Under the pieces are notes generated by a model. The model worked only from the letters and a program-made list of their open reading frames with translations, searched no databases and was not told the DNA's origin. The position numbers and the translations under genes were made by a program. From NCBI GenBank assembly GCA_011390365.1, contig JAABSM010000045.1:1-32388 (forward strand): a stretch of 32,388 nucleotides of DNA, given 5' to 3'. Position 1 is the first letter of the stretch, and every line of letters starts with the position of its first letter. The stretch is from Gammaproteobacteria bacterium (GTDB taxonomy: Bacteria; Pseudomonadota; Gammaproteobacteria; Chromatiales; Chromatiaceae). Below are positions 2,725 to 28,553 of this stretch, one piece after another.

Positions 2725-4152
2725 ATGAGCGCCATCCATTCACCCGAACTGGCATCCCGGCAGGGAGAGGCCAGACAATCGCGGGAGGGCGGGGTCGCCC
2801 CGCGGCTCCAGCGCATCGCCAATCACGGCGGTTTTCAGAGCTTCATCGTCGCCACCATCCTCTTCTCCTCGATGCTGGTAGGCATTGAATCGATGCCGGA
2901 GGTGAAGGAGGACTTTCACTTGGCCTTCGCCTGGGCCGAGCGGCTGGTGCTCACCGTCTTCGTGGTGGAACTGGTGATTCGCATCGGTGCCTATGGCCGG
3001 CAACCCTGGCGCTTTTTCGCCGACGGCTGGAACGTCTTCGACTTCGTCATCATCGCCCTCTGTTTCGTGCCTCAAGCCTACTTCACCTCGGTGCTGCGGA
3101 TCCTCCGGCTGTTGCGCCTGATTCGGCTGCTCAAGGTCGCCAACAAGGCGCAGCAGGCCGAGATCTACCGCCTCAAACACGACAAGCTGGAGCAGGCCTA
3201 CCAGGCGCTGGTGAATGAGCAGGAGAAGTCGGAACGGCTGCTGCTCAACATCCTGCCGCTGCTGGTCGCCCAGCGCCTCAAGAGCGGCGAAAAGCTGATC
3301 GCCGACAGTTACCCCGAGGCGAGCGTGCTCTTCGCCGATATCGTCGGCTTCACCGATTTCTCCAGTCGCATCTCGCCGGAGGAGCTGGTCACCTATCTGG
3401 ATGACATCTTCCGTCGTTTCGATGCCCTGGCCGAGCGTCACGGGCTGGAAAAGATCAAGACCATCGGCGACTGCTACATGGTGGTAGCGGGGCTGCCCGA
3501 CTTCCGCGAAGACCACGCCTCGGTGCTCGCCGACATGGCCATCGACATGCAGGACGCGGTAGACGACTTCAATCGCGATCGGGATCTGGAGTTGCAGATT
3601 CGGGTCGGCATCAACAGCGGCCCGGTGGTGGCCGGGGTGATCGGCCAGAAGAAGTTCATCTACGACCTGTGGGGGGACACCGTCAATACCGCCAGCCGCA
3701 TGGAGTCCCACGGCGTACCTGGACGCATCCAGATCACCGAGGCGACCCGGCAACTGCTGCCAGCCGACTATCCCACCGAAGAGCGGGGCATGATCTCGGT
3801 CAAGGGCAAGGGCAAGGTGCGCAGCTATTTTCTGCTGCGTGAACAGGAGGAGTCCCTGACCTGGGAGGACCTGATCGCCGAGCTCAAGCGCTCCCTCCCC
3901 GCCGGCAAGGTCACCAGCTACCGCAACCTCTCCATCTGGGCCTATGGCAACCCCTACGGTACCCGCTCCATCGTCGCCTTGTTAAGGAACGCGGTAGAGG
4001 AGCATCATGCCGATGCGCTCTGGGCCAACCGCGTCGTCACCCGCGACGGCCAGGTGCATGATCTGCTTCAGCTCAAACAGTTGCGGGAAGAGGGCGTGCC
4101 CACCATCGACAAGCGGGTCGACATGGGGCGGGCGGAGGTGGTGGGCTGGTAG
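2725..4152 (+). CDS. Voltage-sensor / adenylate cyclase / alkyltransferase-like fusion
   Basis: This 475-residue protein appears to join three modules. (1) Residues about 37-138 form four membrane helices resembling a voltage-sensor domain. S4 reads VLRILRLLRLIRLLKV, with R125, R128, R131, R134 and K137 at every third position. F79, E82 (S2) and D106 (S3) match the charge-transfer centre of voltage-gated channels. No pore helices follow. (2) A coiled coil (139-172) leads to a class III cyclase (about 199-345) with metal Asps D205 and D249, N321 and R325. K245 and D314 are the adenine-type specificity pair, so cAMP is the predicted product. (3) Residues about 378-465 resemble the winged-helix domain of O6-alkylguanine transferases (GKVTSYRNLS, YGTRSIV), but the PCHRV motif reads WANRV, so no methyl-acceptor Cys exists. 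AAGGAGCAAGG precedes the ATG. Confidence 0.85.
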   Translation: MSAIHSPELASRQGEARQSREGGVAPRLQRIANHGGFQSFIVATILFSSMLVGIESMPEVKEDFHLAFAWAERLVLTVFVVELVIRIGAYGRQPWRFFADGWNVFDFVIIALCFVPQAYFTSVLRILRLLRLIRLLKVANKAQQAEIYRLKHDKLEQAYQALVNEQEKSERLLLNILPLLVAQRLKSGEKLIADSYPEASVLFADIVGFTDFSSRISPEELVTYLDDIFRRFDALAERHGLEKIKTIGDCYMVVAGLPDFREDHASVLADMAIDMQDAVDDFNRDRDLELQIRVGINSGPVVAGVIGQKKFIYDLWGDTVNTASRMESHGVPGRIQITEATRQLLPADYPTEERGMISVKGKGKVRSYFLLREQEESLTWEDLIAELKRSLPAGKVTSYRNLSIWAYGNPYGTRSIVALLRNAVEEHHADALWANRVVTRDGQVHDLLQLKQLREEGVPTIDKRVDMGRAEVVGW

Positions 4153-5940: not shown

Positions 5941-7326
5941 ATGGCCTTAGACCAATCCTCACGTTACTCTGACCTGTCGCTCAAAGAAGAAGATCTCGTC
6001 GCCGGCGGCAAGCACGTCCTCTGCGCCTACAAGATGAAGCCGAAGTCCGGCTATGGCTATCTGGAAGCGGCCGCCCACTTCGCCGCGGAGTCTTCCACCG
6101 GCACCAATGTTGAAGTCTGCACCACCGACGATTTCACCAAGGGCGTGGACGCGCTGGTCTATCACATCGACGAAGCCAATGAGGATATGCGCATCGCCTA
6201 TCCCATCGACCTGTTCGATCGCAACATGATCGACGGTCGCATGATGCTGGTCTCCTTCCTGACCCTGACCATCGGCAACAACCAGGGCATGGGCGACATC
6301 GAGCACGCCCAGATGTATGACTTCTACATGCCGCCGCGCGCCATTCAGTTGTTCGACGGTCCCTCCAAGGACATCTCCGACATGTGGCGCGTTCTCGGTC
6401 GCCCGGTGGTCAATGGCGGCTACATCGCCGGCACCATCATCAAGCCGAAGCTGGGCCTGCGCCCCGAGCCTTTCGCCAATGCCGCCTACCAGTTCTGGCT
6501 CGGCGGCGACTTCATCAAGAATGACGAGCCCCAAGGCAACCAGGTCTTCTGCCCGGCCAAGAAGGTCTATCCTCTCGTTTACGATGCCATGAAGCGCGCC
6601 ATGGACGAGACCGGCGAAGCCAAGCTCTTCTCCGCCAACATCACCGCCGATGACCACCACGAAATGCTGGCCCGCGGCGAGTTCATCCTCGAAGCCTTTG
6701 GCCCGGATGCGGACAAGGTGGCCTTCCTGGTCGACGGCTACGTCGGCGGCCCGGGCATGGTCACCACCGCCCGCCGCAACTTCCCCAGTCAGTACCTGCA
6801 CTACCATCGTGCCGGCCACGGTGCGGTGACCTCCCCCAGCTCCAAGCGCGGCTACACCGCCTTCGTGCTGGCTAAGATGTCCCGTCTGCAGGGCGCCTCC
6901 GGTATCCACGTCGGCACCATGGGCTACGGCAAGATGGAGGGCGACGCCTCCGACAAGATCATTGCCTACATGATCGAGCGTGACTCCTGCCAGGGTCCGG
7001 TCTACCACCAGGAGTGGTACGGCATGAAGCCCACCACCCCGATCATCTCCGGCGGCATGAACGCGCTGCGTCTGCCCGGCTTCTTCGAGAACCTGGGCCA
7101 CGGTAACGTGATCAACACCTCCGGCGGCGGCTCCTACGGTCACATCGACTCCCCGGCCGCGGGCGCCATCTCCCTGCGTCAGGCCTACGAGTGCTGGAAG
7201 GCCGGCGCCGATCCCATCGAGTGGGCCAAGGAGCACAAGGAGTTTGGCCGCGCCTTCGAATCCTTCCCCCACGACGCCGATCAGATCTTCCCCGGCTGGC
7301 GGGAGAAGCTGGGTGTTCACAAGTAA
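5941..7326 (+). CDS. cbbM: Ribulose-1,5-bisphosphate carboxylase/oxygenase, form II
   Basis: This 461-residue protein is form II RuBisCO, the CO2-fixing enzyme of the Calvin cycle, which works without a small subunit. Active-site features seen are [10 protein letters not shown] with K168, [11 protein letters not shown] with K193 as the carbamylated lysine followed by the Mg ligands D195 and E196, H289 ([10 protein letters not shown]), loop 6 K331 ([10 protein letters not shown]) and the phosphate-binding SGGM and GGGSYGH segments. Length and sequence match CbbM rather than form I or the RuBisCO-like proteins. ATG 5941 has GGAG 6 nt upstream. cbbQ and cbbO follow after a terminator. Form II enzymes have low CO2/O2 specificity, which suggests a low-oxygen or CO2-rich habitat. 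Confidence 0.98.
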
Positions 7327-7368
7327 GCCGAAAGGCCCGCTTGCAATGAATGCCTGACGGCAACAAGG

Positions 7369-7396
7369 GTCCCCGCGCATGCGGGGACTTTTGTTT
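7369..7396 (+). terminator. Rho-independent terminator after cbbM
   Basis: A GTCCCCGC (7369-7376) / GCGGGGAC (7381-7388) stem with a GCAT loop is followed by TTTTGTTT. It is strong and sits 43 nt after the cbbM stop. Confidence 0.85.
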
Positions 7397-7399
7397 GCG

Positions 7400-7421
7400 C
7401 CGCCGAAAAGTCGGCGGGTTT
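7400..7421 (+). terminator. Second hairpin between cbbM and cbbQ
   Basis: A CCGCCGA (7400-7406) / TCGGCGG (7411-7417) stem with an AAAG loop is followed by GTTTTC. It is weaker than the preceding terminator. The two in tandem may attenuate read-through from cbbM into cbbQO. Confidence 0.5.
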
Positions 7422-7479
7422 TCGGGGCCGCGATCGACCATCGCGCCCCTCCTGATTCAAGCGAAACGGATGATTGGCC

Positions 7480-8286
7480 ATGACGGATATACAACAGTTT
7501 TTCATCAAGCAAGAGCCTTTTTACGAGGCCCAGCAAGACGAAGTGGCCCTCTATGAGGCCGCCTACGCCGAACGCCTGCCGGTGATGGTGAAGGGGCCGA
7601 CGGGCTGCGGCAAGTCTCGCTTCGTGGAGTACATGGCCTGGAAGCTGGGCAAGCCCCTCATCACCGTCGCCTGCAACGAGGACATGACCGCCTCCGACCT
7701 GGTCGGGCGCTATCTGCTCGATGCCGATGGGACGCGCTGGCTCGACGGCCCTTTGACCACCGCCGCCCGTATCGGCGCCATCTGCTATCTCGACGAGGTG
7801 GTCGAGGCGCGCCAGGACACCACGGTGGTGATCCACCCGCTGACCGATCATCGCCGAACCCTGCCGCTTGACAAGAAGGGGGAGCTGATCGAGGCGCATG
7901 AGGATTTCCAGCTGGTGATCTCCTACAACCCGGGCTACCAGAGTCTCATGAAGGATCTCAAGCAATCCACCAAGCAGCGTTTCACCGGTCTTGATTTCGA
8001 CTACGCCCACCCCGAGCTGGAGGCCGCCATCGTCGCCAGGGAGACCGGTATCGATGAGCAACTCGCTGGCCAGCTGGTGGATGTCGGCCAGACCGCCCGC
8101 AATCTCAAGGGGCACGGTCTCGACGAGGGGATCTCCACCCGCCTGCTGGTGTATGCCGCGCAACTGATCAAGCGTGGCATCGCGCCGCGCTCGGCCTGCC
8201 GCATGGCCCTGGTGCGACCGATTACCGATGACGCCGATATTCGCTCGACCCTGGATCACGCCATCGACAGCGTGTTCGACGCCTGA
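7480..8286 (+). CDS. cbbQ: RuBisCO activase AAA+ subunit CbbQ
   Basis: This 268-residue MoxR/NorQ-type AAA+ ATPase assembles into hexamers and, with CbbO, remodels inhibited RuBisCO to release tight-binding sugar phosphates. The Walker A motif is GPTGCGKS (39-46) and Walker B is ICYLDEV with D105 and E106. A sensor Asn lies in VISYNPGYQ. The N-terminal start [13 protein letters not shown] is typical of CbbQ. ATG 7480 is preferred over an in-frame TTG at 7474 because the CGGA upstream is better spaced from it. The stop codon overlaps the cbbO start by one base, indicating translational coupling. Confidence 0.95.
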
Positions 8287-10547
8287 TGATGGGTCTGAAC
8301 GAAGCCGAGGTCCAGGCCTACCGTAGCCAGTTCGGTTGCGGTTTCAAGGAGGTCGACAATGTCTTCGCGGAGTGTATCCGCGAGGCGGTATCCCTGTTGA
8401 GCGAGCAGGGGGTGCGCGACTACCTCGACGGCGCGGCGTTGATCTGCATGCTCGGGCGCGGCGTCGACCCGGTGCTCGCCTATCTCGAAGAGATGCCGAC
8501 GGTGGCCAACCGGCTCGGCGAAGGGACCCTGGAGCTCGTCTCGCGCAGCGCCTGGCGGCTCTCCCGCTCGCCCAACGGCAAGGCCATACCGGCGCTGTTG
8601 CAGATCATCGGCGAGGCGGCGCGCCGCCTCGGCAGCGAAGAGCAGCTGGAACACTTCATCGACATCGCCATGGGGCTGGCCAACCGCACCAGCGGTTCGA
8701 TCCATGGCAACCAGTCGAGCACCATTCCCAGCCCGGGGTTGTCCGACTTCCTCGCCCAGACCCCCTATCTCATCAGTCAGCTCTCCATCCAGGGGCTGCG
8801 CAACTGGGTGGAGTACGGCATCCTCCACTACAATAACCATCCGGATCGTCAGCGGGATTACTTCAGCCTGCAATCCGCCGACAGCCGCGCGGTGATGCAG
8901 CGCGAACGCCATGGCACCCTGTATGCCGATCATGAGCGACTGCTGGATCTCTACCTCAAGGCGCTGTGGCGACGGAAGGAGCATCTGGTCCCCTACTCCG
9001 AGGGGTGGGATGAACTGCGCAAGCCCATGCCCTATTACGATCCGCTGGGGATGCGTATCCCCGATGTTCAGGATGACAGGAACGGCGTTACCGGTCTCGA
9101 CCGGTACCGCGCCACCCTGGCCCACATGGCGGCCCACAAGGCGTGGAGCGAGCAGGTCTTCGCCGACAATCTCAGCCCCTTTCAGCGGGTCGCCGCCGAG
9201 CTGTTCGAGGATAGTCGGGTCGAATACCTGGCCAGCCAACGCTATCCCGGCCTGCGCAACCTGTGGCTGAAACTCCATCCCCGTCCTGGCGAACAGGACT
9301 GCGACCCGGAGCAGCAGTCCTGCATTCGCCATCGATTGGCGATGCTCTCCTACGCCATCCTCGACGCCAATCATGGCTACCAGAATCCGGATATCCTGGA
9401 GTTCGCCCAGCGCTTTCACGATTTGATGGCGCCGGGGGTGTCCAGTACCGCGGAGATCATCAAACTCGCCCTCTCCTTCATCGCCCGCACCCGCCGCCAG
9501 CATGACCTCTCCGCCAACATCTACTTTGCCGATACCGAGGTCGACTATCGGGACGATAATCGCCACATGTGGAAGTTCATCGAAGAGGGGGATGAAGAGG
9601 AGATGTTCGACGCCGAGCAGCGCTCGAACCGGGAGGAGAAGGAGCTCGACGGACTGCCGCCGCGCCACTACCCGGAGTGGGACTACACCACCCGGACCTA
9701 CCGCCCCGACTGGGTGAGCCTCTATGAACGCCTCCACCCCTCCGGGGATGCCGGGCGCATCGATGCGCTGCTGGCCAAGCATGAATCCCTCGCCAAGCGA
9801 CTCAAGCAGATTCTCGATCTGCTCAAGCCCCAGAACTATGTGCGGATCCGCTACCAGGAGGAGGGCAGCGAGCTCGACCTGGATGTGGCGATCCGCTCCC
9901 TCATCGATTACCGCGCCGGCCAGACCCCCGATCCGCGCATCAACATGAGCCACCGCCACGACGGCCGGGATATCGCCGTGATGCTGCTGCTCGACCTCTC
10001 CGAATCCCTCAACGAGATACCGGACGGGGCCAGCCAGAGCATCCTCGAACTGAGCCAAGAGGCGGTGGCGCTGCTCGCCTGGGCGATCGAACAACTGGGC
10101 GACGAATTCGCCATCGCCGGCTTCTCCTCCAACACCCGTCACGAGGTGCGCTACCAGCACATCAAGGGTTTTTCCGAGCACTGGAACGAGACGGTCAAGG
10201 CCCGCCTCGCCGCCATGGAGGCGGGCTGGTCCACCCGCATGGGCGCCGCCATCCGCCACGCCGGCCACTACCTGGGCAATCGCAAGGCCGACAAGAAACT
10301 GCTACTGATCCTCACCGACGGCGAACCCTCCGATATCGACGTCAGCGACGAAAAGATGCTCCCCAGCGACACCCGCCGCGCCGTCCAGGAGCTTGACCAA
10401 CAAGGGATCTACAGCTACTGCATCAACCTCGACCCCCGCGCCGACGACTATGTCGCGGACATCTTCGACAAGCGCTACACGGTAATCGACCACGTGGAAA
10501 AACTTCCTCAAAAGCTCCCGGAAGTATTCCTCTCCCTGACCAAATAG
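8286..10547 (+). CDS. cbbO: RuBisCO activase adaptor CbbO (VWA domain)
   Basis: This 753-residue protein is the partner of CbbQ. One CbbO binds the CbbQ hexamer and docks it onto RuBisCO through a C-terminal von Willebrand A domain. The VWA fold begins about residue 563; the metal-site motif D570-L-S572-E-S574 is intact, and the later LTDGEPSDID segment supplies the remaining MIDAS-side residues. The long N-terminal helical region is as in CbbO/NorD. Length is normal for the family. The start ATG (8286-8288) shares one base with the cbbQ TGA; an ATG three bases on (8289) is an equally possible start. The only likely confusion is NorD, but the cbbM-cbbQ context settles it. Confidence 0.95.
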   Translation: MMGLNEAEVQAYRSQFGCGFKEVDNVFAECIREAVSLLSEQGVRDYLDGAALICMLGRGVDPVLAYLEEMPTVANRLGEGTLELVSRSAWRLSRSPNGKAIPALLQIIGEAARRLGSEEQLEHFIDIAMGLANRTSGSIHGNQSSTIPSPGLSDFLAQTPYLISQLSIQGLRNWVEYGILHYNNHPDRQRDYFSLQSADSRAVMQRERHGTLYADHERLLDLYLKALWRRKEHLVPYSEGWDELRKPMPYYDPLGMRIPDVQDDRNGVTGLDRYRATLAHMAAHKAWSEQVFADNLSPFQRVAAELFEDSRVEYLASQRYPGLRNLWLKLHPRPGEQDCDPEQQSCIRHRLAMLSYAILDANHGYQNPDILEFAQRFHDLMAPGVSSTAEIIKLALSFIARTRRQHDLSANIYFADTEVDYRDDNRHMWKFIEEGDEEEMFDAEQRSNREEKELDGLPPRHYPEWDYTTRTYRPDWVSLYERLHPSGDAGRIDALLAKHESLAKRLKQILDLLKPQNYVRIRYQEEGSELDLDVAIRSLIDYRAGQTPDPRINMSHRHDGRDIAVMLLLDLSESLNEIPDGASQSILELSQEAVALLAWAIEQLGDEFAIAGFSSNTRHEVRYQHIKGFSEHWNETVKARLAAMEAGWSTRMGAAIRHAGHYLGNRKADKKLLLILTDGEPSDIDVSDEKMLPSDTRRAVQELDQQGIYSYCINLDPRADDYVADIFDKRYTVIDHVEKLPQKLPEVFLSLTK

Positions 10548-21729: not shown

Positions 21730-21739
21730 CGTGGTCCGC

Positions 21740-23944
21740 TCAGTCCGGCTTCTCTTCTCCAATATAGGAGATCACCACCCCCGCCAGTGGCGGCAGGGTC
21801 AGGGTGATGGAGCAGGGCCGATCCATCCAGGGCTTTTCTTCGGCGAGGATGGGTTCGGGGCCGTTGCCGATGTTGCTGCCGCCGTAGTATTCCGAGTCGG
21901 AGTTGAGGGCCTCGCGGTAGTAGCCGGGGAGGGGGACGCCGATGCGGTAGTCGTGGCGGGGGATGGGGGTGAGGTTGAGGATGACGATCATCTGTTCGTC
22001 ATCTTCGCCCTTGCGCAGGAAGCTGAGGGTGGATTGGGAGGAGTCGTGGCAGTCGATCCATTCGAAGCCTTTCCAGTCGAACTCAAAGCGATAGAGGGCG
22101 GGGCTCTCGCGGTAGAGGGTGGCGAGGTCCTTGACCAGCCGCTTCATGCCGCTGTGCAGGGGGTATTCGAGCAGCCACCAGTCGACGGTGGAGGCGCTGT
22201 TCCACTCGCTGCCCTGGGCGAATTCGGTGCCCATGAAGAGCAGTTTCTTGCCCGGGTGGGTGAACTGGTAGGTATAGAGGGCGCGCAGGTTGGCGTGCTT
22301 CTGCCATTCGTCGCCGGGCATCTTGTTGAGCATGGAGCTCTTGCCGTGGACCACCTCGTCGTGGGAGAAGGGCAGTACGAAGTTCTCCGAGAAGGCGTAG
22401 AGCATGCTGAAGGTGAGCTTGTCATGGTGGTACTGGCGATGGATCGGGTCGTGCTCCATGAAGCTCAGGGTGTCGTTCATCCAGCCCATGTTCCACTTCA
22501 GGTCGAAACCGAGACCGCCGAGGTAGGTGGGGCGGCTGACCTGGGGCCAGGAGGTGGACTCCTCGGCGATGGTGAGGGTGCCGGGGCAATGTTTGTGGAC
22601 CGCTACGTTGAGGTCACGCAGGAAGTCGATGGCGTCGAGGTTCTCGCGCCCGCCGTGGACGTTGGGCAGCCATTCGCCTTCCTCACGGGAGTAGTCGAGG
22701 TAGAGCATGGAGGCGACGGCGTCGACGCGCAGGCCGTCGAGGTGCATCTCTTGCAGCCAGTAGACGGCGCTGGCGATGAGGAAGTTTTTCACCTCGTTGC
22801 GCCCGAAGTTGTAGATCAGGGTCGACCAGTCCTTGTGCTCGCCCATGCGCGGATCGGCGTGCTCGTAGAGCGGGGTGCCGTCGAAGCGGGCCAGGCCGTG
22901 GGCGTCCTTGGGGAAGTGGGCGGGCACCCAGTCGAGGATGATGCCGATGTCGTTGCGGTGGCAGTGGTCGACGAAGTAGCGGAAGTCGTCGGGGTCGCCA
23001 AAGCGGCTGGTGGGGGCGAAGTAGCCGGTGGCCTGATAGCCCCAGGAGAGGTCGAAGGGGTGTTCGGTGATGGGCAGCAGCTCGATATGGGTGAAGCCCA
23101 GCTCCTTGACGTAGTCGACCAGCTGGTGGGCGAGGTCGCGATAGTCGAGGAACTCCCCCTCCATGTTGCGCCGCCAGGAGCTCAGGTGGACCTCGTAGAC
23201 CGACATCGGGGTGTGCTGCCAGTCGAGCTTGGCGCGGTAGTCCATCCACTCGCCGTCGCCCCATTCATAGGCGCTGTTGCCGGCGATGATGGAGCCGGTG
23301 CGCGGGCGCAGCTCCTGGCGCTGGCCGTAGGGGTCGGCCTTCAGCAGCACCTCGCCGCTGTGGCGATTGCGCAGCTCGTACTTGTAGATATGGCCGGGTC
23401 CCAGGTCGGGCACGAACAGCTCCCACACGCCGCTGCCGCCGCGTACGCGCATGCCGTGACGGCGGCCGTCCCAGTCGTTGAAGTCGCCGACCACGCTGAC
23501 CCGCTCGGCGTTGGGCGCCCATACCGCGAAGCGAATGCCGCAAACGCCGTCCACCTCGTGTACATGGGCGCCGAGGAAGGTGTAGGCGTGGTGGTGGCGG
23601 CCCTCGCCGAACAGGTGCATATCGAGGTCGCCCACCTGGGGGCCATAGGTGTAGGGATCGTGCTCGATGTGTTCCCGATGGTCGTGGTCGCGCCAGATGA
23701 CGCGGTAGTGCTCCGGCAGCATCGAGGCGTCACCCCGCCATTCGAAGAAGTCGGTGTCGGGGATGCGCTCCATTTGCAGCCCGCCCTCGGCGATGGAGGC
23801 CTCCTGCGCCTGGGGGTTGAAGACCCGAATCACGGCTTGCTTGCCCTCCGGATGTCGCCCCAGGACCGCGAAGGGGTCGTGGTGTCGCGCCTCGATGATG
23901 CGCTTGAGCTCTTCGTTGATGCGTGGGGTAGCCATAGTGTTCAT
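21740..23944 (-). CDS. glgB: 1,4-alpha-glucan branching enzyme
   Basis: This 734-residue cytoplasmic GH13 enzyme introduces alpha-1,6 branches into glycogen. It has the N1 and CBM48-like domains ([21 protein letters not shown], 140-160) and a GH13 barrel with the catalytic triad D408 (DGLRVDAV), E461 (TIAEES) and D529 ([10 protein letters not shown]). Length matches E. coli GlgB (728). The start is uncertain between ATG 23944 (4 nt after the upstream stop) and ATG 23935 ([10 protein letters not shown]). The frame is open further upstream, but only as a shadow of the preceding gene. It is the last gene of the glycogen operon. Confidence 0.96.
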
Positions 23945-23948
23945 CCGT

Positions 23949-25409
23949 TCAGAAGTCATAATGCAGTATATCGTTAACGCGTCGGCAGATCTCGCGTCCG
24001 TAGTCGGTCCACAGCCCTTCGCCCCAGTAGCGATAGCAGCTGGTTTCGGCGGAGAGCAGGTGGAACAGGGCGTTGCGGTAGCGCGGGTCGGCGCTGGAGA
24101 CGCCCGGTTCGAGCACCGTGCGGTGGAAGTTGGCGCTGGCCTCCTCCATGGGCTTGAGGACGTTGTCGTAGCCCTTGACCCAGGAGAGGTTGCTGGTCCA
24201 GCTACCGCCCTCCATGTGGAAGCCATCCTCGTTGCCCAGTTCAGTGATCACGTCAGCTAGTGTATCAGGCCCGTCGCCCGGCTTCATGCGTTGCCAGATG
24301 CGATGTTGAAACAGGGGCTGGAGGACGGGGAAGTCCTCCTCGTTCAACCCCATCCGGGTGAGGTGCTCCAGATACTCGCTGACGTTCATCGCCGGGGTGT
24401 CGGAACCGCTGCTCTCGCGCATCACCTCGAAATACTTGTCTGGGAATTCGTTCATCATCACGCCGCCGTTCTCGCCGTCGGCGATCTGGGTCACCAGCGG
24501 TGGGACCTCTTTGCCGGCCAGCTCTACGCGGGAGAGCCCCTTGGCCTCGTAATAGGGCTGCATCTGGGCCACCAGCTTGGTGTCCGAGCCCTGGGTCTTG
24601 ACGATGGCGATGATGCTGGCGGTTTCGCCTTTGGAATTGGTGCAGACCAGACGATGGGGCAGATGGGGTTGACGCGGGTTCCTGCCGTCTTCCGGGTGCT
24701 CCACCGTGTGTTCCTGCACCAGCACCCAGTTGTAGCCGCAATCCTTGAGGGTCTTGACGAACTCATAGGCGACGTCCGGGTGGTTGGGCAGCGCCATCTC
24801 CGAGGGCGAGAAGCCGCGCACCCGCGCCAACGCCTCGTCACCGAAGATGGCGGCGAAGTGGTGTTGCCAGGCCTTCACATGCAACCGAAAATCCTGGATC
24901 GGGGTGGAGGGGGCGACGGCGTGGCCCCAGGGCGCCCCAAGCCACTCCACGCAGTGGCGATAACGCGGGTCGCGGGTGACCGCGCCGAGGGCGTCGAAGA
25001 CATCGTCCAGGCCCATTTCGCGCATGCCGTGAAGCAGGGTGCCCGAGTACTCCAGCATGATGCGGGGCTGCTTGCCTTCCTCCACCAGTTGCGGGATGAA
25101 CTCGCCGATGCGCTTGTAACACCAGTGGAAGACCGAGGCGTTGTGATTGTCGCCGAGTTCCGGGTGCTCCATCATGTGTCGCAGGTTGCTGATCAATGCG
25201 GCGGTGCGCAGGTCGTCGCCGCCGGCCGGTACCAGCGGCTGGTGCATGTGCAGGGCGCTGGCGCTGGCGGCGCGAACGCGACCGAAGTCGATGCCGCCCT
25301 GATCACGAAAGGCGGGCTGGTCGCGGCTGTCGGCGATGACACGTTCGATATGCGCTTCGTTGCCGCACAGGTTGGGAAGGCCGTCGATGGTTTCGGGTAG
25401 CTGGCTCAC
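23949..25409 (-). CDS. GH57 family glycoside hydrolase
   Basis: This 486-residue member of family GH57 belongs to a group of alpha-glucan hydrolases, branching enzymes and 4-alpha-glucanotransferases. Motif 1 is ALHMHQP (52-58), motif 3 [10 protein letters not shown] carries nucleophile E204, and motif 4 ADGENGG carries acid/base D311. The length is shorter than GH57 amylopullulanases and fits a single-barrel enzyme. It sits between glgA and glgB, 4 nt before glgB, so a role in glycogen remodelling or breakdown is likely. Whether it is an amylase or a transferase cannot be read from the sequence. It differs in length and sequence from the second GH57 at 27033-28217. Confidence 0.9.
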
Positions 25410-25490
25410 GCGGAGACTCCTGTGGTGATGTGGCGCGGGACGCGTCCGCGGAGGGACGCGCCGGAGGCGGGGCAGGGCGGTCTGCCCCGC

Positions 25491-26975
25491 CTAGGCCTGG
25501 ATGTGTTGGTAGATGTCGAGATAGTGTTGCCCCGGTTGGTTCCACGAGTAGTCATAGGCCATACCGTTGGCGATCAGTTCCCGGAAGGCGGCCGGCTTCT
25601 CGTACCAGAGATCGATGGCGCGACCCAGCGCCGACTCCAGCGCCGGCTCGTGGGTCTCATGGAAGACGAAGCCATTGCGCTGTTCTCTGGGGAGTTCCGA
25701 CTGTTCGTAATCGAATACCGTATCGGCAAGCCCCCCCACCGCCCGCACCACCGGCAGCGAACCGTAGCGCAGCGCGATCATCTGGGTCAGACCACAGGGC
25801 TCGAACATGCTCGGCACCACCAGCATGTCGGCGCCGGCGTAGATCATGTGGGCCAGCTCCTCGTCGTAGCCGATCTCCAGGTGACAGTTGGGATCGTCAT
25901 TCAGTTCATGCTTGAGCTGCCAGAACTCGGCGTTGATGCCCATCTCCGGGCTGGAGCCGAGCAGCACGAACTGGCCGCCGCGGGCGAGGGTGTAACGGAT
26001 CGCGTGCTTGATCAGGTGCACCCCCTTCTGGGCGTCCAGGCGTCCCACATAGGCGACCAGCGGACGCTTGGTCTCACCCGTCTCCTCTTCGCGCAGCCAC
26101 AGCTTCTTGCGCAGCGCCTGCTTGTTGGCCTGCTTGCCGGCGTAATCGCCAGCCTCGTAGGGGGTGTCGATGTAGGGGTCATTGCCCGGGTTCCACATAT
26201 CATAGTCGAGGCCGTTGAGCACGCCGCCGAACTTCTCCTGATGGAGGTGCAGGGTGTGGCCCAGGCCATAACCCCAATCGGTATGGCGCACCTCCCAGGC
26301 GTGGCGAGGCGAGACGGTGGTGACGAAGTTGGCGTAGACGACCGCCCCCTTCATGTAGTTGATGGCGCTGGGGTTGAAGTCGTCGCCCAGCCGATCCTTG
26401 TGAAAATAGTACTCGGGACGCCCCAGGCCGGTAAACCAGAGCACGTTCTCGCCGGCGATCCCCTGGTGCTTGAAGTTGTGGATGGTGTGGCACACCCGCG
26501 CCTTCTCCATGCCGCCGTGCTGGTAGAGATCGTAGAGCATCACCGGCGCCAGCGCGGTCTGCCAGTCGTGGGTGTGGATGATGTCCGGGCGTTTGCCCGA
26601 TTGCAGCAGGAACTCCAGCGCCGCCTTGGTGAAGAAGGCGAAGCGCATGTGCTCATCGACAAAGCCGTAGTAGCTGCCGCGGTTGAAGAAGTTGTCGTGG
26701 GAGTGGGGCTCGATGAAGAAGCACTTGCGGCCATGCACGAAGCCGAACCACACCGTGCAGCGCACATGGTAATTAAGCCAGGGCACCCACAGATCCGGAT
26801 GGGTAACCTGAAGGTCCCAGATATGGTCATAGCGCATGCAGTCATACTTGGGCAGGATGATCTCCACCGCGTTGCCGCGAATCTCCAGCTCCCGGCTGAG
26901 GCCATAGACCACATCGCCCAGGCCGCCCACTTTGGCGACCGGCGCGCATTCCGAAGCGATCATTGTGATGAACAT
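25491..26975 (-). CDS. glgA: Glycogen synthase (GT5)
   Basis: This 494-residue GT5 enzyme elongates alpha-1,4-glucan from ADP-glucose. It has the N-terminal glycosyl-binding motif KVGGLGDVV (15-23; E. coli has KTGGL), HTHDWQTAL (134-142), the nucleotide-sugar site GRLDAQKG with R312 and K317, and the late PSMFEPCGLTQ with E392 followed by GGLADTV. The KVGGL variant resembles plant and cyanobacterial starch synthases more than the E. coli enzyme. GH57 genes lie on both sides. After the stop a GGCGGGGCAG/CTGCCCCGCC hairpin (25466-25491) overlaps the stop codon and has no T-run, so it may be a processing or attenuation structure. No glgC is seen here. Confidence 0.95.
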   Translation of the reverse strand: MFITMIASECAPVAKVGGLGDVVYGLSRELEIRGNAVEIILPKYDCMRYDHIWDLQVTHPDLWVPWLNYHVRCTVWFGFVHGRKCFFIEPHSHDNFFNRGSYYGFVDEHMRFAFFTKAALEFLLQSGKRPDIIHTHDWQTALAPVMLYDLYQHGGMEKARVCHTIHNFKHQGIAGENVLWFTGLGRPEYYFHKDRLGDDFNPSAINYMKGAVVYANFVTTVSPRHAWEVRHTDWGYGLGHTLHLHQEKFGGVLNGLDYDMWNPGNDPYIDTPYEAGDYAGKQANKQALRKKLWLREEETGETKRPLVAYVGRLDAQKGVHLIKHAIRYTLARGGQFVLLGSSPEMGINAEFWQLKHELNDDPNCHLEIGYDEELAHMIYAGADMLVVPSMFEPCGLTQMIALRYGSLPVVRAVGGLADTVFDYEQSELPREQRNGFVFHETHEPALESALGRAIDLWYEKPAAFRELIANGMAYDYSWNQPGQHYLDIYQHIQA

Positions 26976-27032
26976 GTACGCGAATCCTGCATCAATCTTC
27001 TGTTTCGTATTGTTGGTGGGCCATTGTGGGGG

Positions 27033-28217
27033 TTACTCCCCCATTCGCGCAAGCGCCTTGTTGAGGGCGTCCCAGCTCGCGTCGAGATCGTCATGGGCCC
27101 GTTCCACCCAGGCCTCGCCCCAGTAGAAGTTGCAACTGGTCTCGGCGCGCAGCAGATACCACATCGCCTCTTCCAGCAAACGGTCCAGCTCCGGTTCGTT
27201 GAGATGTCGCTCGCCGGCCCGCCAGCGGGCGTCATGCACCGCCTTGCTGGTAAGGGCGATGCGTTGCAGACCGTCGCGCTGGGCAGGCGAGCCGGTCCAT
27301 TGGGTGAAGCCCCTGCCATCATGCCAGCCGGTGTTCCACGCCCCGGTATTGACGCGAACCTCGCCATGGACGCCGTGGCGATCCAGGTAGTCATCGATAA
27401 AGGTGGGGGAGATGGGGCTGTCGCCGGCGCGGCCTCGCTCCAGCAGGGTCTGATACATGCCCCAGTAGTTGGCCTGGAACTGAGGATTGCGGAACCAGCC
27501 GCCATTGTCGCCATCGGTGGCGGTGGTCACCAGCGGCTCGAAGTCGCAATGGCGGGTGCGCTGGATCAGCTCCTGTTCAAACCACCCCGCGTCCATCCCC
27601 GCCTCCTGGGCATCCGACAGGTTGCGATCGCGCACCACCACGATGATCTCATCCTCACCGTGGCGGGCGAGGTGGGGCCGATAGCGCAGCTCATGCCACT
27701 CCATCGGGGTGACCGCCTCCACATGCTCGCTATCCGCCAGCACATAGCGATAGCCCAGACGCCTGAGCAGCGGGATCAGCTCCATGCTGAAGCCCATCTC
27801 CGGCGGCCACAAACCCTGAAAGCTCTCGCGCCAGAAGAGATGGCGGGCGATCGCCCGCCAACGCCCCAGCTGCTCCTGGCGATCGGCGTCGGGAATCAAC
27901 GGCAGCACCGGGTGGTAATAGCCGGTGCCAAGGATCCGAAACAGCCTCTGGTTCTGAAAATGCCACAGCAGCGAACCGCAATCGACCACCCCATAGACCC
28001 GCTCCTGAAAGGCCGGATCGGCCAGCGTCTCCAGCAGCGCGCCCGAGAGGGAGAGGTGGACCCGGGCGACATCCTCGTAATCCCACAATGCCCGCGGGAT
28101 GCGATCCATCGCTTGCAGGATCTCCTTGGGCTCCCAGGAACCTTCGTCGAGCAAGGCCTGGAGATTGCCGGAAGGCTGGTGAAGGTTCAGGACCAAGGCG
28201 TGGTGGATCGTGTTCAT
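27033..28217 (-). CDS. GH57 family glycoside hydrolase (second)
   Basis: This 394-residue GH57 protein is the first gene of the glycogen operon. Motif 1 is LNLHQP (10-15), the nucleophile is E140 in WPPEMGFS, and the acid/base is D235 in TDGDNGG. The final RAETSCNFYWGEAWVE segment resembles the end of the other GH57 here ([15 protein letters not shown]), so the two are probably distant paralogues. The ATG at 28217 has a weak ribosome-binding site. The 57-nt gap to glgA suggests co-transcription. An alpha-amylase-like role on glycogen is inferred from context. Confidence 0.88.
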   Translation of the reverse strand: MNTIHHALVLNLHQPSGNLQALLDEGSWEPKEILQAMDRIPRALWDYEDVARVHLSLSGALLETLADPAFQERVYGVVDCGSLLWHFQNQRLFRILGTGYYHPVLPLIPDADRQEQLGRWRAIARHLFWRESFQGLWPPEMGFSMELIPLLRRLGYRYVLADSEHVEAVTPMEWHELRYRPHLARHGEDEIIVVVRDRNLSDAQEAGMDAGWFEQELIQRTRHCDFEPLVTTATDGDNGGWFRNPQFQANYWGMYQTLLERGRAGDSPISPTFIDDYLDRHGVHGEVRVNTGAWNTGWHDGRGFTQWTGSPAQRDGLQRIALTSKAVHDARWRAGERHLNEPELDRLLEEAMWYLLRAETSCNFYWGEAWVERAHDDLDASWDALNKALARMGE

Positions 28218-28553
28218 GGCGGCATCGCGAGTGGCTGAGTGACAAGCTCAATTATGACGCTTTTATGCTACGCCGCCATGACAAAGGCCAATAAATCGGC
28301 TTTTTTTGGCGGAGGGCTGGGGTGGGGGCGCAGAATGGCCAGTGGGCGTGAACGGTCAGGGGAGACTGGGCGGGGCCGCTTGGCGCGGGAGAGCTTGTGG
28401 GCATGTTGGCCTGGGCAAGGCCGAAAAAGGTGGGGACAAGACTTTGAACATTATAGGAGTCATGGTAGAGTGGCGGGTCAGGAAGGGGCGCCTGCTGGAT
28501 AACACTCGAACGGTCATGGAGTGATGCACCACCTCGGGAAATGAATCAGCCCA
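28218..28553. other. Intergenic region upstream of the glycogen operon
   Basis: I see no supported gene in these 336 bp. It should contain the minus-strand promoter of the GH57-glgA-GH57-glgB operon; a CATAAT -10-like hexamer reads on the minus strand at 28256-28251, but no matching -35 was found. A 20-codon open frame at 28462-28524 (+), starting just after AGGAG, is too short and unrecognised to call. Confidence 0.4.

Follow-up and report, generated by a model that had tools for sequence, protein, structure and literature searches.

Ci-VSP is a pore-less voltage sensor domain (VSD) joined directly to a cytosolic enzyme. The bacterial protein described here shares this type of fusion, but the enzyme is a phosphatase in Ci-VSP and a cyclase here, and the best matches of its VSD, among those listed, are sensors of the Nav/Cav type. 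With NaChBac and NavAb, both bacterial Nav channels, it shares the sequence and fold of the VSD, but their S5-S6 pore is replaced by a linker and a cyclase. Also comparable are the channel-cyclases of Paramecium, Tetrahymena and Plasmodium, in which voltage sensor segments and an adenylate cyclase are found in one chain (Weber 2004, cited in PMC10651576 and PMC12414865); the accessible parts of the same two articles mention hyperpolarisation-linked cAMP for Paramecium. The present protein has the same two components in one chain, but it is bacterial and pore-less, whereas the protozoan proteins are eukaryotic and contain a K+ channel pore.

The key to a figure in a 2023 review, which according to its legend covers all VSD proteins reported to date, includes a cyclase homology domain, and the VSD cyclase of the accessible text is the protozoan form with the K+ channel pore (PMC10651576). 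Voltage sensing by cyclase membrane domains has been debated since the first mammalian sequences. A 2025 viewpoint states, in its accessible part, that dual-function channel-cyclases appear restricted to protozoans and that the function of the membrane domain is an open question (PMC12414865). Rv1625c and related solved bacterial cyclases have the linker helix and the homodimer-type catalytic domain in common with our protein, but Rv1625c carries a six-helix anchor (accessible part of PMC4821796) in place of an S1-S4 sensor. Finally, the C-terminal tail aligns with most of the domain of alkyltransferase-like (ATL) proteins such as E. coli ATL and S. pombe Atl1, a Trp lying in the motif or beside it; it differs from them by LWANR instead of PWHR, a partly missing loop and the fusion to a membrane enzyme. 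The ATL fusions named in the accessible part of PMC10779285 are to endonucleases (EndoV) or to a histone-like domain. The first-pass annotation of this DNA knew of no characterised bacterial voltage-sensor cyclase with a third, MGMT-like domain. None of the papers listed in our literature search, judged by title and beginning of abstract, is about a bacterial VSD-cyclase, most subscription papers and uncurated database entries being outside the scope of that search.

The gene and its surroundings

The gene lies in a window of 32,388 nucleotides, i.e. the whole stretch of DNA that was analysed. It is an uninterrupted reading frame that starts with an ATG preceded by an AGGAG sequence, and its features are collected in Table 1. 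All residues singled out in the first-pass annotation, i.e. F79, E82, D106, R125, R128, R131, R134 and K137 of the sensor and D205, K245, D249, D314, N321 and R325 of the catalytic domain, are at the positions given there. We rejected the possibility that the tail is a read-through or frame artefact, as its third-position GC content of 0.87 is close to the values for the VSD plus cyclase part (0.86) and for three neighbouring genes (0.83-0.86). The gene is real and well-formed, and it is apparently an undescribed variant of the VSD-enzyme theme.

Table 1. Features of the VSD-cyclase gene, with positions in the window
Feature	Position	Strand	Basis
Complete reading frame (475 aa) with VSD, helical linker, cyclase of class III and ATL-like tail	2725..4152	+	
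VSD, S1-S4, residues 37-144, without pore helices	2833..3156	+	Pfam Ion_trans
S4 charges R125, R128, R131, R134, K137	3097..3135	+	
Post-S4 linker, residues 145-193, including EQEKSER-LLLNILP	3157..3303	+	HNOBA partial match, linker comparison, predicted helices
Catalytic domain of a class III adenylate cyclase (residues 194-371)	3304..3837	+	Guanylate_cyc 6e-65; alignments to solved adenylate cyclases
ATL-like tail, residues 376-475	3850..4149	+	Remote ATL profile match

On the 5' side, a hydantoinase B/oxoprolinase gene (1140-2687, + strand) ends 37 bases before the cyclase gene and is a candidate for co-transcription with it; on the 3' side there is a Ppx/GppA gene. Farther on, RuBisCO large chain, a CbbQ-type AAA protein and a VWA-domain protein follow each other in a carbon-fixation cluster (5941-10547, + strand). 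Two long frames of 748 and 938 amino acids (21731-23977 and 25422-28238, both +) have no Pfam match at E 1e-6, and in the segment 29769-32371 (+) the gene for an HsdM-type DNA methylase precedes that for a protein with a DUF1016/YhcG PDDEXK nuclease domain.

Sensor, linker and catalytic domain

The Ion_trans match of the N-terminal part (E 4e-16) covers positions 4-114 of the 241-position profile, i.e. only the four helices S1-S4; the S5-P-S6 pore is absent, as the match ends at profile position 114 and the cyclase comes next. With Guanylate_cyc matching at E 6e-65, the combination of the two domains cannot be put down to chance. A pore-less S1-S4 sensor, as proposed in the first-pass annotation, is thus borne out, and structure comparison confirmed the VSD fold for residues 37-138. 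A comparison with Ci-VSP and Hv1 had been suggested. The matches listed for the VSD, in structure as well as in sequence, are channels of the Nav/Cav type, and neither Ci-VSP nor Hv1 is found among those listed (60 of 189, 60 of 119 and 50 of 264 matches, and 50 structural entries), which does not prove that they are absent from the remaining matches. Nor was there any phosphatase family in the protein at Pfam E <= 0.1, PTEN-like phosphatases included.

The residues of the sensor were compared in an alignment (A5) of this protein with 41 channel rows, picked from 80 channel loci where the match reached S4, and 31 viral cyclase rows chosen from 115 domain hits. The charge-transfer centre, consisting of an aromatic and an acidic residue in S2 (F79, E82) and an Asp in S3 (D106), is identical in all 41 channel rows, and so are R125 and R128 and R131 of S4. 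Position 134 is R in 38 rows, K in two and S in one. Position 137, on the other hand, is S or T in 36 rows, R in two and a gap in three.

The only full relative is a protein of 416 amino acids from another genus of the same family (genome G003), with 62% identity over residues 15-373 (61% in alignment A1). It has the same order of VSD, linker and cyclase, its Ion_trans match likewise stops early (at 115 of 241), and it ends directly after the cyclase, without a tail. The four arginines at every third position of S4 (R125, R128, R131 and R134), F79, E82 and D106 are all kept in it, but position 137 is S. Of the five S4 charges originally pointed out, four therefore persist in the sole close homologue, whereas K137, being S or T in most channel rows and S in this relative, is not a feature of the family. 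Judged by sequence, then, domain order and intact voltage-sensor and catalytic residues are conserved in a second genus, and since only two members are known, this conservation rests on one comparison. A VSD fold alone does not prove voltage sensing, and the movement of gating charges is a prediction here.

In AC5, AC8 and AC9 both halves can be aligned with the catalytic domain, which also matches Rv1625c and one more solved bacterial cyclase. In mammalian cyclases the catalytic residues are divided between C1 and C2. In the present protein the full set is found in a single chain: D205 and D249, which we take to be the metal ligands, K245 and D314, presumably on the adenine side, and N321 and R325, presumably the transition-state pair. 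All six residues are kept in the G003 protein. The first-pass reading of a complete adenylate-type class III set stands, and the product would be cAMP.

Between the sensor and the cyclase there is a partial, below cut-off match to HNOBA (residues 149-185), and the structure model predicts helices at 118-147 and 154-195, the second mostly with low confidence; both are part of the evidence for the helical linker, which the first-pass annotation gave as a coiled coil. The segment EQEKSER-LLLNILP, or one similar to it, is also found behind other sensors in related cyclases. In one of them (L160, 1045-2229, + strand of its own locus) a receiver domain (Response_reg, E 1.2e-27) replaces the membrane sensor; in another (L178) the N-terminus is soluble and contains no sensor domain known to Pfam; further ones have multi-pass membrane N-termini by a simple hydropathy count, a method that detects only three of the four VSD helices in our protein. 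The occurrence of a similar linker behind receiver, multi-pass and soluble N-termini indicates that the cyclase cassette accepts different sensors, and in this case the sensor is a VSD.

The full-length structure model is weak (mean pLDDT 65, pTM 0.40). Its pLDDT is 89-95 in residues 31-110 and 77-78 in S4 (111-140), and falls partly under 50 in the linker. The cyclase part was set aside because the viral cyclase rows are not correctly aligned in the first half of the catalytic domain, all 31 of them having gaps at residues 205, 245 and 249.

The C-terminal tail

The tail was first described as MGMT-like. This holds inasmuch as it is remotely related to alkyltransferases, but the statistics favour the ATL type over the MGMT/Ogt type. 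Against PF01035, residues 373-476 of the frame, which comprise the tail and a few preceding residues, score 13.2 bits, with the cut-off at 27. A profile of five ATL rows gives the tail 18.4 bits vs. 11.4 for the best of 2,000 shuffles, and a profile of 35 ATL rows, some of them identical, gives 19.6 vs. 11.3 bits. As 30 of these 35 rows were recruited with alignment A3, in which the tail itself is one of six rows, the larger profile may be mildly biased; the five-row profile is free of this bias. When the whole reading frame is scored among all cyclase-locus ORFs, it reaches 15.0 bits with the 35-row profile (E 0.0037), compared with 8.5 bits for the second-best ORF, and an hhalign comparison of the tail with ATL has a probability of 81% (E 1.3e-5, 77 columns). 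Single ATL queries (L228, L229, L230, L231 and L233) rank the tail 2, 3, 1, 3 and 40, respectively, with no clean separation from shuffles. An Ogt/MGMT origin was considered and rejected in favour of ATL: a 33-row profile of Ogt-type proteins plus two ATLs gives the tail 8.8 bits, second among 2,002 to a shuffle with 11.9 bits. A relation in sequence to the ATL domain is thus found, but it is a remote one.

P392, G394, Y399, R414, W433 and R436 all fall into invariant columns of A3. By this alignment Y399 corresponds to the base-flipping Tyr, R414 to the Arg finger, W433 to the ATL Trp and R436 to the Arg of the motif; the Tyr, the Arg finger and the PWHRV motif of ATLs are described in the accessible part of PMC10779285. 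The Gly following the conserved Tyr of ATLs is Arg in the tail, and in comparison with most of the aligned ATLs about 7 residues are missing from the loop behind the motif. The tail has no PWHR-type motif: in LWANRVV the Trp is present, the Pro is absent, the His/Tyr is missing and there is a one-residue insertion. No Cys is found in residues 372-475, hence no PCHR with a nucleophilic Cys. The earlier reading of WANRV as PCHRV with Ala for Cys is not favoured, as the alignments place W433 opposite the ATL Trp by means of that insertion, although this placement is uncertain because the match is weak.

Within the family the tail occurs in one of 211 genomes, that of the host (G000); the other 210 are without it at E <= 0.01. 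Plasmids gave no match to it, and NCBIfam nothing above the cut-offs, either for the tail or for the whole protein. A sequence comparison with the PDB gave 18 weak matches, of which the best has E 0.099 and 17 are chains of antibodies, nanobodies or sybodies. A single-sequence model of the tail has a pLDDT of 43.9. It should be added that 34 of the 38 genomes searched match PF01035 at E <= 0.001, but the host genome, a 98%-complete draft, does not; the cyclase tail is the sole alkyltransferase-related stretch that we saw in it. Binding of DNA, which had been suggested for the tail, is unsupported, because the likeness to ATL is only remote, the tail was found in one of the 211 family genomes and the model is uninformative.

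Occurrence, possible mode of action and alternatives

The genomes covered by profile searches with A1 form overlapping sets: 211 of the family, where at most 7 candidates per genome were scored, and 369 of the class and 398 of the phylum, where the maximum was 4 in each case; matches from a further search were confined to genomes of the 398-genome phylum search. Among 106 cyclase ORFs (97 distinct) of the loci retrieved, the VSD profile found six, all of them copies of the G000 and G003 proteins. These two form one clade (support 98/89, bootstrap not settled) in a tree of the best 45 out of 96 distinct cyclase domains. The A1 profile search found no VSD-cyclase in G001, an 89%-complete genome of the same genus, and the loci of about 4.5 kb around the Ppx gene in G001 and G003 have no VSD-cyclase ORF beside that gene. 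Of the three-domain order, VSD and cyclase recur together in G003, and among the family genomes the tail was found only in the host.

A scan of genome contigs, made as a wider search for VSD-cyclases, confirmed 389 relatives, of which 80 were kept. In 79 of these the match lies within residues 2-151, and in the remaining one (L054, match 12-206) it reads into an apparently ordinary channel pore with no cyclase in frame. None of the 80 loci has an ORF among the 106 cyclase ORFs, but the scan is weak evidence of rarity because its six peptide patterns would miss the G003 protein. The whole protein matched 512 plasmid records, none over 80% of its length, and the 30 matches listed begin only from residue 137. 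Viral contigs scanned for the whole protein, its cyclase and ATLs contained no relatives, and the at least 120 stretches from a cyclase motif scan had no VSD profile match in their ORFs.

We consider it fairly probable that the protein is a membrane-bound adenylate cyclase with a pore-less Nav-type voltage sensor as its input. It would most likely act as a homodimer. The linker into which S4 continues resembles the one by which receiver and multi-pass membrane modules are attached to related cyclases, so the movement of S4 could reach the catalytic domains: as S4 moves with the membrane potential, the pair of linker helices would be shifted or twisted, which would alter how the two catalytic domains meet. 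The output of cAMP would then track the potential, rising or falling upon depolarisation, and the cNMP-binding proteins of the cell would read it. The host genome (4.26 Mb) has 13 class III cyclase matches and 32 matches to cNMP-binding domains, 27 of them over the cut-off, and the cell thus seems equipped to use cAMP. This large cyclic-nucleotide network is an observation from one genome. Control of cAMP by the membrane potential is in our opinion plausible, and rather more so than its opposite. The tail is probably a lineage-specific add-on from an alkyltransferase-like protein; the core device would not depend on it, as the G003 relative has none.

The VSD could instead be a mere membrane anchor or dimerisation module, or sense pH, a lipid or a partner, with a cyclase that is constitutive or regulated otherwise. 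The varied N-terminal modules of related cyclases, many of them multi-pass, and the loss of K137 in the G003 protein are compatible with this, but an anchor needs neither the S4 arginines nor F79, E82 and D106, and all of these are retained in the G003 protein at an overall identity of 62% and are common to 38-41 of the 41 channel rows; we give this explanation about one chance in four. Hv1 has a VSD without a pore and, behind it, a helical linker, the same arrangement as here, and one may ask whether our VSD conducts protons or cations, as Hv1 does or as a gating-pore current, the cyclase answering a local change of ions or pH. According to the accessible text of PMC10651576, ion currents pass through the VSDs of several families of proteins, but the matches listed are Nav/Cav-type sensors with no Hv1 among them, and we regard a conducting VSD as very improbable.

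Only slightly less improbable is a tail that works as an ATL-like domain for DNA lesions or DNA binding, so that DNA would be linked at the membrane to voltage or to cAMP. The scores of the two ATL-only profiles, the hhalign result, the correspondence of Y399 and R414 to the base-flipping Tyr and the Arg finger, and a host otherwise without PF01035 all speak for it. The sub-threshold PF01035 score, the Arg after the Tyr, the shortened loop, the lost His/Tyr of PWHR/PWYR, the absence from G003 and, at E <= 0.01, from the other 210 family genomes and the uninformative model speak against it, and we find a protein-contact or regulatory appendage more likely than a repair module.

Returning to the voltage-controlled cyclase, we see about even chances that the protein is the first voltage-gated second-messenger enzyme without a pore to come from a bacterium, in which S4 drives a class III cyclase dimer and converts potential into cAMP without ion flow, with a tail derived from DNA repair in one lineage. 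The protein is bacterial and compact, and its textbook S4 leads straight into a homodimer-type cyclase; it makes the idea of a voltage-sensing cyclase directly testable, and would lend itself naturally as a scaffold for tools that control cAMP by voltage. For the bacteria themselves, it would offer a route from membrane potential to gene control.
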